In this document: positions 36,845 through 44,799 of the stretch, piece after piece | Layout: each line of letters starts with the position of its first letter | Numbering within the stretch: the first letter of the stretch is position 1 | Notes under the pieces: generated by a model | Told to the model about the DNA's origin: nothing | Databases searched by the model: none | What the model saw: only the letters and a program-made list of their open reading frames with translations | Made by a program: the position numbers and the translations under genes | Origin: Stappia stellulata | GTDB lineage: Bacteria > Pseudomonadota > Alphaproteobacteria > Rhizobiales > Stappiaceae | DNA: 64,000 nucleotides | Direction: 5' to 3' | Assembly: GCF_020176715.1 (NCBI RefSeq) | Contig: NZ_JAIVMF010000010.1 | Location: 62,001 to 126,000 of the forward strand

Positions 36845-36863
36845 ATGCGTGAGAATCCCGCAT
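36845..36863 (+). promoter_or_regulatory. Candidate sigma-54 activator site (UAS) of the importer operon
   Basis: ATGCG-TGAGAATCC-CGCAT, 5-bp arms. Its centre (36854) lies 102 bp before the -24 GG. The same 19-bp layout, ATGCG-TGAGAACCG-CGCAT, lies at the same distance from the promoter at 44784. A second, weaker GCG-TGAAAATTTAT-CGC dyad (36828-36844) abuts it upstream. Confidence 0.7.
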
Positions 36864-36954
36864 TACTTTCGGCTTGTCGGGTTCTTTCGGAGCGCCTCAT
36901 CTCTAAACATATGATATAAAAGGTAAAAAACTTCCCGTCTTGAATGGTGGTATC

Positions 36955-36970
36955 TGGCATGACGCTTGCT
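36955..36970 (+). promoter_or_regulatory. Sigma-54 promoter of the importer/hydrolase operon
   Basis: TGGCAT-GACGC-TTGCT with GG-N10-GC spacing; predicted start near 36982, about 60 nt before the ATG at 37043, whose GGGAGG is strong. Confidence 0.85.
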
Positions 36971-37042
36971 AACCCGAATGAGCCGGCATAGTGAGGCCTG
37001 CCGAGGCAGGGCCGGATACGACAGAAACGGGAGGACGTTTGG

Positions 37043-38581
37043 ATGGTTAGACTAGGACGAGTTCTGTTTGCGACGGCGGCGGCTTTGGGCGTCTCGCTTT
37101 CGGCCGTGCAGGCTTCGGAGCTTCGGGTTGGCTTTACGCTCGATGCCATGACGCTGGATCCGGCCAATCACCGCAACCGCGAAACCGAGACCATCATCCG
37201 CAACATGTACGACGGTCTCGTCACCCGCGACGGCGACATGAAGGTGGTGCCGGAGATCGCCGAATCCTACGAGTTGGTGTCGCCGACGGTCTACGACTTC
37301 CGCATCCGCGACGGCATCACCTTCCACGACGGCTCGCCGCTGACGGCGGAGGACGTGCGTTTCACGCTGGAGCGGCTGACGGCCGAAGGCGCGATGGGCG
37401 ACGGCCAGACCAGCCCGCGCAAGAGCCTGCTCGGACCGGTCGAATCCATCGAGGTGCGCGATGGCAACACCGTGCGCATCACCCTGTCCGAACCCTGGCC
37501 GATCCTTCCGGCGATGCTGCCGTTCCAGGAGATCGTCTCCAAGGCCTTCGTCGAGAAGGTCGGAACCGAAGGTCTCGCGACCCAGGTGAACGGCGCCGGC
37601 CCCTTCAAGCTGGTCGACTGGCGCAAGGGCGACGCCATCATCATGGAGCGGTTCGAGGGCTATTACGGCGGCGCGCCCTCCATCGAGCCGGTCGGCAAGG
37701 CCTGCGTCGAACGGGCGATCTTCAAGATCATTCCCGAATCGGCATCGCGCGTGGCCGCGCTTCTGTCCGGCGACGTCGACATTATCAACGAGCTGCCGCC
37801 CTTTTCAGTCGAGCAGGTGAAGAACAATCCCGGCACCGACGTGATGACCGTCAACGGCACCCGCAGCTTCTTCGTCGCGATGAACATGGAAGGCGAGCTG
37901 TTCAGCAATCCCAAGGTGCGTCAGGCCGCGGCCCACGCGATCGACAAGGATCTGATCATCGACCGCATTCTCGGCGGCAACGCCGCGCGGATCGAGGGCA
38001 TTCTGTCTCCGGACGCCTTCGCGGCGAGCACCGACCTGCCGGTCTACGAATACGACCCGGAAAAGGCGCGCGCCCTGCTTGCCGAGGCCGGGTACCCGGA
38101 CGGCGTCGAGGTGACCATGGACACGGTCGGCGCCTACAAGGACATTGCCGAGGCGGTCGCCTCGCTGCTCACAAAGGGTGGGTTCAACACCCGTGTCGCG
38201 GTGGGCGAGGGCGCGCAGATGACGCAGAAGTGGCGCACCAAGGGCGGGCCGAAGTCCGGTGACATGTATTTCACCTCCTGGGGCAACGGGTCGCTCGATC
38301 CCTTCGACATCTTCACCCCGACGCACCGCACCAACGACCGCGGCAACTCCGCCGGCTATTCCAATCCGGAGGTCGACCGCCTGCTCGACGAGGCGGCGGT
38401 TGAACTCGACACGGAAAAGCGCGCCGCGCTCTACCGCAAGGCCGAGCAGATCGTCAACGCGGAGCTGCCGTATCTCTACCTGTGGGTTCCGCAGGACATC
38501 TACGGCGTGTCCAAGCGGCTGAAGGGATGGCGTCCGAGCGCGGACAGCCGCATCAACCTGCACGACGCTTGCGTCGATTGA
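37043..38581 (+). CDS. ABC transporter substrate-binding protein, peptide family (family 5)
   Basis: 512 residues. Sec signal MVRLGRVLFATAAALGVSLS, cleaved near AVQAS. The mature protein has the SBP_bac_5 signatures MTLDPANHRNRETETIIRNM, DGLVTRDGDM, IRDGITFHDGSPLTAEDVRF and AINMEGELFSNPKVRQAAAH-like NMEGELF...RQAAAHAIDKD. It binds oligopeptide- or nickel/opine-like ligands for the DppBCDF proteins encoded next. The ligand cannot be read from sequence; the downstream amidohydrolase suggests an amide or conjugate. Confidence 0.93.
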   Translation: MVRLGRVLFATAAALGVSLSAVQASELRVGFTLDAMTLDPANHRNRETETIIRNMYDGLVTRDGDMKVVPEIAESYELVSPTVYDFRIRDGITFHDGSPLTAEDVRFTLERLTAEGAMGDGQTSPRKSLLGPVESIEVRDGNTVRITLSEPWPILPAMLPFQEIVSKAFVEKVGTEGLATQVNGAGPFKLVDWRKGDAIIMERFEGYYGGAPSIEPVGKACVERAIFKIIPESASRVAALLSGDVDIINELPPFSVEQVKNNPGTDVMTVNGTRSFFVAMNMEGELFSNPKVRQAAAHAIDKDLIIDRILGGNAARIEGILSPDAFAASTDLPVYEYDPEKARALLAEAGYPDGVEVTMDTVGAYKDIAEAVASLLTKGGFNTRVAVGEGAQMTQKWRTKGGPKSGDMYFTSWGNGSLDPFDIFTPTHRTNDRGNSAGYSNPEVDRLLDEAAVELDTEKRAALYRKAEQIVNAELPYLYLWVPQDIYGVSKRLKGWRPSADSRINLHDACVD

Positions 38582-43662: not shown

Positions 43663-44681
43663 GCGTCGCCGGCGCTCCCAAGGGGGCGCAAGGGGCGGGC
43701 ATGACGGGTTACCAGAACGACCTGATCGGCGATCATCCGAGCATTCTGGCGTTGCGGACCCTGATCGAGCGGGTGGCCCGCTCGCCGGCGCAGAATGTGC
43801 TGATCTACGGGCCGACCGGCACCGGCAAGGGCATGGTCGCGCGCATGCTGCACCGCCTGTCCGCCCGCGCCTCGAAGCAGTTCGTCGACATCAACTGCGC
43901 GGCGATCCCCTCAAGCCTGCTGGAATCGGAACTCTTCGGCCACGAGAAGGGCGCCTTCACCGGCGCGGTGGACCGCAAGGTCGGGCTGGTCGAGGCGGCG
44001 AACCACGGCACGATCTTCCTCGACGAGATCCGCGAGATGGAGCCGATGCTCCAGACCAAGCTGCTCAGCCTGCTCGACACCCACGAGTTTCGCCGGGTCG
44101 GCGCGGTCAAGACCACCTCCGTCGACGTCCGCTTCATTGCAGCGACCAACAAGGTGCTGCTGTCGGAGGTGGTGGCCGGCAATTTCCGCGAGGATCTCTA
44201 TTTCCGCCTGCAGGTGGTGGCGATCAATATTCCCGCGCTCGCCGAGCGCGGCGACGATGTCCTGAAGCTGTCCGACTATTTCATCTCCCGCTTCAACGCG
44301 CGCTACAAGCGCGCGATCAAGGGGCTGTCGCCGGAGACCGCCGAGATTTTCCTGCAGTACCAGTGGCCGGGCAATGTGCGGGAACTGGAAAACCTGATCG
44401 AGCGCATCTTCATCCTGGAAGACGACGACATTGTCGAGCCGCATCACCTGCCGGACCGGATCCTGCGCACGGTGCGCGGCGGAAGCGGCGCGGGGCCGGC
44501 CTCGGCGCGCGCCGATCTCTCCATGGGGTTTCGCGCGGCGACCGAAGCCTATCAGCGCAAGCTGATCGAACAGGCGCTCGGCACCTCGAAGAACAATCTC
44601 AAGGACGCGGCGGCCCTTCTCAAGATCAGCCGGCACGCGCTGCGCCACCAGATGCTCAAGCTCGGGATGATCGATGCGTGA
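43629..44681 (+). CDS. Sensorless sigma-54-dependent transcriptional activator (PspF-like layout)
   Basis: 350 residues from ATG 43629, with GAGGGAA about 5 nt upstream, starting inside the hydrolase gene. Only about 30 residues precede the AAA+ domain: Walker A GPTGTGKG (61-68), GAFTGA (108-113), Walker B GTIFLDEI and the arginine-finger region [12 protein letters not shown] Fis-type HTH ends the protein ([20 protein letters not shown]). There is no receiver, GAF or PAS input domain, so control must come through a partner, ligand binding to AAA+, or autoregulation. Its target promoters are probably those at 36955 and 44784. Confidence 0.93.
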
Positions 44682-44692
44682 GAACCGCGCAT
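44674..44692 (+). promoter_or_regulatory. Candidate sigma-54 activator site (UAS) of the atuA-like operon
   Basis: ATGCG-TGAGAACCG-CGCAT overlaps the regulator's TGA stop (44679-44681). The centre (44683) is 102 bp before the -24 GG, exactly as for the dyad at 36845. A less clear GCG...CGC dyad (44697-44713) follows at once. Confidence 0.7.
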
Positions 44693-44783
44693 GGCTGCGT
44701 GCGAACGGCGCGCGCATCGCAGCGGATGACGGGTTTTTTCAATAAGATATTGCGAATAATGAACTTTTTTCGCGATTTGTGAT

Positions 44784-44799
44784 TGGCATGCTCCCTGCA
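44784..44799 (+). promoter_or_regulatory. Sigma-54 promoter of the AtuA/DUF4387 operon
   Basis: TGGCAT-GCTCC-CTGCA, GG-N10-GC. An AT-rich tract (44731-44775) lies between it and the UAS. The next start is ATG 44838 with GGAG upstream. Confidence 0.82.

Follow-up and report, generated by a model that had tools for sequence, protein, structure and literature searches.

Control of sigma-54 promoters from upstream enhancers is itself well known, and two described systems come closest to the one reported here. PspF of Escherichia coli pairs an AAA+ domain with an HTH domain, has no sensor domain and acts from upstream enhancer sites, reportedly with IHF-assisted looping at psp. PspF is restrained by PspA, according to a passage of PMC3128695. 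At glnA, NtrC (NRI) works from enhancer dyads upstream of a sigma-54 promoter; for glnALG, excerpts of PMC7408454 place the NRI sites on one side of the helix and the sigma-54 sites on the other, and refer to a system other than glnALG as the one in which helical phasing of activation was shown.

Here we describe a locus of Stappia stellulata, contained in a window of 64,000 nucleotides (the whole stretch of DNA that was analysed), in which enhancer-like dyads stand upstream of two sigma-54 promoters. Its activator shares with PspF the combination of AAA+ and HTH domains without a sensor domain, and the likeness to psp is one of protein architecture and of enhancer sites placed upstream. It differs from PspF in scoring only 248.6 bits against TIGR02974 (cut-off 443.55) and 211.6 bits against NF008622 (cut-off 529), and the operons have other target genes than psp, with no pspA among the operon genes identified. 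NtrC carries a receiver domain, which the window activator lacks, and its enhancer sequence is, as we take it, different from the window dyad.

New here are the regulon and its enhancer motif: the sigma-54 system gains a defined motif, a candidate regulator that is directly testable, and two target operons. Among the literature matches listed (titles and the starts of abstracts), we found no description of this sigma-54 system or motif; no paper was found on DUF4387, and no relevant one on AtuA with sigma-54 and an ABC transporter or on acyclic terpene utilization AtuA. A term search for oligopeptide, Stappia, citramalate and AtuA returned no occurrence in the sigma-54 regulon survey PMC12316311.

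Results

The two promoters, both on the forward strand, match what we take to be the sigma-54 -24/-12 consensus at 10/10 positions in P1 (TGGCATGACGCTTGCT, 36955-36970, GG at 36956) and 9/10 in P2 (TGGCATGCTCCCTGCA, 44784-44799, GG at 44785). Upstream of them, on the same strand, lie UAS1 (ATGCGTGAGAATCCCGCAT, 36845-36863), which reads ATGCGTGA-GAA-TCCCGCAT and has one mismatch to ATGCGTGAnnnTCACGCAT, and UAS2 (ATGCGTGAGAACCGCGCAT, 44674-44692), which reads ATGCGTGA-GAA-CCGCGCAT and has two; against a motif trained without Stappia-group promoters they score 19.2 and 18.5 bits. The initial annotation had placed the dyad centres at 36854 and 44683, each 102 bp from its GG, and direct reading bears this out in full. 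It had also called the intervals AT-rich, and the 90 bp from dyad to -24 are indeed 59% and 51% AT, in a surrounding region of 30-40% AT per kb. Its further argument from a shared 'TGAGAA' centre has to be given up as independent evidence, because TGA is the inner part of the dyad half-site. A weak possible extra copy of the dyad (9.5 bits, 44697-44715, forward strand) lies about two helix turns 3' of UAS2. Using WATCAANNNNTTR as what is presumably the IHF consensus, we called an IHF-like site with one mismatch on the reverse strand of the UAS1-P1 interval (36904-36916), a sequence match and not proof of binding, and none at one mismatch in the UAS2-P2 interval.

When the two upstream regions are aligned on their GGs, 17 of 19 bases are identical at the dyad, a value reached in none of 20000 shuffles of both regions (maximum 16, in one shuffle). 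Identity outside the dyad is 25/91 in the interval and 21/89 further upstream, approximately the 25% expected, and a recent promoter duplication is therefore excluded. More generally, the second dyad could be the leftover of a duplicated promoter segment, with copying rather than selection behind the shared spacing, as the equal spacing and GAA centre at both promoters of the window, L003 and L097 might suggest; but identity is at chance beyond dyad and promoter, distant loci carry the dyad at other spacings and an old event would still need selection on the dyad, which makes this explanation very improbable.

Coincidence is the other trivial explanation, given that GC-rich dyads are common in a GC-rich genome. 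It could appeal to the full motif at three mismatches, found at 12 sites in the genome versus 5 for the reversed control, and to the window itself, where the 2 matches at up to three mismatches were equalled or exceeded in 19 of 100 shuffles, a weaker figure. The strength of the dyad pair is, however, that both are exact and in register, and not the three-mismatch count. A genome-wide search, suggested by the initial annotation, singled out UAS1 and UAS2 as the only sites in 4.55 Mb that come within two mismatches of ATGCGTGAnnnTCACGCAT, and the annotation's own pattern matched exactly twice in this genome, its reversed control not at all. The other ten three-mismatch sites all lack a -24/-12 match of 9/10 or better within 40-150 bp (the best is 8/10 at 150 bp), and the dyad is moreover kept in orthologous loci; taken together, these observations leave a chance match scarcely credible. 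As candidates for further regulon members in this genome, the same ten sites were rejected for want of a good sigma-54 promoter.

Behind P1, six tightly spaced genes on the forward strand lead up to the activator gene: a family 5 extracellular solute-binding protein (SBP_bac_5, PF00496; 37043-38581), an OppB/DppB-type ABC permease (38606-39613; NCBIfam matches below cut-off), an OppC-type permease (39610-40521; by domain search), an OppD-type ABC ATPase (40524-41528; NCBIfam matches below cut-off), an OppF-type ATPase (41525-42562; searched from 41528) and a C45-family autoproteolytic acyltransferase/hydrolase (42559-43662; PF03417, with NF040521 above cut-off), for which no solved relative was found at E 1e-5. 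P2 precedes, again on the forward strand, an AtuA-family protein (44838-46220; PF07287), a homologue of citramalate lyase subunit A (PDB 9erq_A; residues 1-451 of 460, E 2e-75), and a DUF4387 protein (46217-46546; PF14330), a homologue of subunit B (PDB 9erq_B; E 7.9e-22). Between 36500 and 46700, candidate sigma-70 promoters and candidate terminators were no more frequent than in shuffles. Further downstream, at 46598-50400, a LysR-family gene on the minus strand (GcvA-like) adjoins genes whose scores point to a 4-aminobutyrate transaminase and a succinate-semialdehyde dehydrogenase.

The activator itself (43701-44681, forward strand) has AAA+ and Fis-type HTH domains (PF00158 and PF02954, both above cut-off) and no sensor domain, the AAA+ match beginning at about residue 8 counted from the probable start. 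It lies between the two sites and ends on UAS2, as the initial annotation had it, the dyad overlapping the TGA stop at 44679-44681; the start given there, 43629, is less likely than 43701, which the alignment of 43 loci makes the probable one. The regulator gene thus draws its stop codon from UAS2. The translation contains GAFTGA, which we take to be the sigma-54 activator motif, and rpoN is present in the genome. A recognition helix S/T-RHALRHQ ends 41 of 43 orthologues (RHAMRHQ in L092 and RHALRYR in L150 are the exceptions), the linker before it being unconserved among them, and no S/T-RHALRH-like helix occurs in the six frames of 73 loci of other sigma-54 activators.

Orthologues of the activator were collected with their flanking DNA from genomes and plasmids, giving 43 loci, window included; among named genomes, the window's regulator matches Stappia stellulata at 95%. 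At E 1e-95 the activator is sporadic: with the query genome counted in every set that contained it, the activator was found in at least 6/87 genomes of its own family, in at least 10/298, 14/345 and 2/23 genomes of other families, and more widely in at least 3/385 genomes across the class and 3/398 across the phylum, all lower bounds because the larger searches scored only the first 5-7 candidates per genome. Gene content is conserved in 39 of the 43 loci, which hold the solute-binding protein, two permeases, two ATPases, the C45 hydrolase, the activator, the AtuA-like and the DUF4387 gene, whether complete, truncated where a contig ends or in another order. Gene order is altered in L149 and L150, with activator, AtuA-like and DUF4387 genes followed by the importer genes, so that the solute-binding protein gene comes after DUF4387; L150 has no C45 match. 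Three Cupriavidus plasmids (L093-L095) keep the dyads and promoter and, of the gene set, just the activator, AtuA-like and DUF4387 genes, apart from one distant ATPase match in L093 (36% identical, 8 kb away). In 42 of the 43 loci the activator has the AtuA-like and DUF4387 genes with it, L004 being the one without them.

Dropping three near-identical loci left 40, with 74 upstream regions, 67 of which have a -24/-12 match of at least 8/10; the seven that do not are P2 of L102, L127, L135, L137 and L149 and the regions upstream of the solute-binding protein gene in L149 and L150. A motif was trained de novo on 59 promoters from outside the Stappia group, with no pattern given and distance not part of the training. 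All runs (4/4 plain and 3/3 palindromic) arrived at TGCGTGAA-n-TTCACGCA, and the five-base arms of the initial annotation are the outer part of this longer half-site, which includes TGA. All 8 left-out Stappia-group promoters, which are close relatives of one another, carry the motif 101-103 bp from the GG, with scores of 15.3-20.7 bits. The initial annotation had let its proposal stand or fall with the presence of the dyad in orthologous loci, and there the motif recurs: in the 40 loci, a site of at least 14 bits is found at 60 of 67 sigma-54 promoters, a count that includes the 59 training promoters, against a mean of 0.185 and a maximum of 9 for 200 column-permuted motifs.

With a threshold of 15 bits, the 330 bp upstream of solute-binding protein or AtuA-like genes hold 60 matches, the rest of these loci (614 kb) holds 7, and loci of other activators yield 3 in 1.02 Mb. 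By a simpler test, 24 of the 43 orthologous loci combine a dyad (13/16) with a promoter, and none of the 73 loci of other sigma-54 activators does. Most of those 73 have a lower GC content (median 0.48 versus 0.65, with 9/73 at 0.60 or above), so that matches away from the promoters of the orthologous loci themselves serve better as a control. The loci are related, so none of these counts is made of independent cases. Genus-wide three-mismatch counts were tried as a marker of the regulator and rejected, being too noisy to tell genomes that have it from those that lack it: G002 has, among the matches listed, 18 three-mismatch sites and a two-mismatch site, yet no regulator at E 1e-95.

There are exceptions. 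Five promoters beside an activator show no trace of a dyad, namely P2 of L005, L007 and L008 (3.9, -4.1 and 0.3 bits) and P1 of L102 and L135 (1.9 and 1.6 bits); two more promoters have weak dyads (L134 P1, 12.8 bits; L136 P2, 11.1 bits), and L149 has a dyad with no -24/-12 element at the 8/10 cut-off. In four loci (L102, L127, L135 and L137) the gap between activator and AtuA-like gene is 11-25 bp, and there P2 and the second dyad are both absent, with no site of 12 bits or more near the activator stop. Among the 40 loci, 30 have a site near that stop, and in 7 of these 30 the dyad gives the TGA stop at the same offset, the betaproteobacterial L009 and L093 being among the seven; in L134, an eighth locus, the dyad overlaps the stop in another way.

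The spacing of 102 bp that the initial annotation gave for both dyads is exact at both window promoters but not universal, and other helix-phased distances occur beside it. With each promoter represented by its best site of at least 14 bits and near relatives collapsed, we obtained 47 dyad-GG distances between 58 and 125 bp, which fall at 58-61, 69-72, 79-86, 94, 101-107, 114-115 and 123-125 bp, with none between. Their best period is 10.8 bp (R 0.69), which none of 100000 uniform sets equalled (drawn over 45-130 bp, each at its best period from 9.5 to 12), and with the de novo matrix the phasing holds when the 100-107 bp group is left out. With a simple consensus, phasing was seen at 12/16 (p 0.0004) and at 13/16 (0 of 5000) but lost significance without the 100-107 bp group (p 0.15 and 0.095); this consensus gave a few off-register distances (50, 62 and 92), and the de novo matrix sharpened the phasing. 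In the column-permuted control, 1 of 200 permutations had at least 8 collapsed sites (R 0.74). We assign no absolute helix face, because the mean phase depends on the assumed period, being 0.53 turn at 10.8 and 0.77 turn at 10.5.

As for second sites, 30 of 36 are 19-23 bp away from the best site. The stretch 20-50 bp upstream of the GG is AT-rich on average (53-57%), and an IHF-like site is present in 26 of 67 intervals (in 12 of these at one common position and in 7 at a second), versus 2.8 expected from whole-interval shuffles that understate the local AT-richness. Phasing, paired sites and AT-rich or IHF-like intervals are the pattern expected of a looping enhancer on one helix face, and the helix-locked natural distances are clean evidence, from comparison of loci, that sigma-54 activation is under a face-of-helix constraint.

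Discussion

We propose that the dyads are upstream activating sequences (enhancers) of the activator encoded at 43701-44681, through which it would drive both operons, and to this reading, drawn from sequence comparison, we give a probability of roughly 0.87. The initial annotation's view that one regulator controls both operons gains support from the conserved dyad, from the absence of any dyad-promoter pair in the 73 control loci and from the joint absence of P2 and second dyad in four loci, and, because the dyad is common to most of the related loci examined, at whole-turn spacings, a single regulator is very probable; its binding to the dyads we infer. The more serious rival holds that the dyads bind some other regulator of both operons, a repressor or another sigma-54 activator, while the encoded activator acts elsewhere. 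The genome has other sigma-54 activators to offer (19 candidates on a first look, this one included), and five promoters beside an orthologue do without the dyad, but the dyad accompanies the orthologues through alpha- and betaproteobacterial loci, down to the minimal Cupriavidus plasmids, it is not found with a promoter at the 73 loci of other activators, and its phased position 58-125 bp upstream of the -24 element is where an activator's enhancer is placed. We consider such a rival regulator unlikely.

If the encoded activator is indeed the regulator, dimers of its Fis-type HTH domain would bind TGCGTGAA-n-TTCACGCA at both promoters, some 102 bp before the -24 element, and with DNA bending, in which IHF may take part, the AAA+ ring would loop to the sigma-54 polymerase and open it. 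From P1, presumably in a single transcript, this would express the importer, the C45 hydrolase and the activator itself, a positive feedback, and from P2 the citramalate-lyase-like gene pair. Self-activation is likely because the regulator gene sits downstream in the first operon; with the activator placed after six tightly spaced genes, activation of P1 should raise the activator and then P2. As the activator has no sensor domain, its control probably lies in how much of it is present or in a partner, by analogy with PspF and PspA, and the near-constant company of the AtuA-like and DUF4387 genes makes these the genes to consider first for a connection with the signal. More tentatively, and with somewhat less than an even chance, the sensor-less activator within its own target operon may constitute a self-activating switch for the importer and the citramalate-lyase-like pair, controlled in trans by a partner, and its promoters in many genera, turn-locked at 58-125 bp, may form a natural series in which loop geometry could be measured.

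The substrate may be approached from the genes of both operons. Both subunits of citramalate lyase CmlAB (PDB 9erq, 9evf) are near full-length homologues of the second operon's pair, which we regard as CmlAB-like, with a putative lyase activity on citramalate; judged by homology, this is a better lead for 44838-46546 than 'acyclic terpene utilisation'. The C45 hydrolase within the transporter operon hints at an N-acylated or peptide-like substrate, and the tie between the AtuA-like/DUF4387 genes and a peptide-type importer with this hydrolase is itself a substrate clue.

Some observations on individual loci are worth recording. The module occurs on large plasmids (L092-L095), as the whole set in Ciceribacter thiooxidans and in minimal form in the three Cupriavidus plasmids. 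Two 14/16 dyads stand 20 bp apart upstream of the single recognised promoter of L150. Finally, one same-genus assembly (G006) has two equal-scoring copies of the activator, L096 and L097, on contigs C27 and C103, possibly an assembly duplicate.
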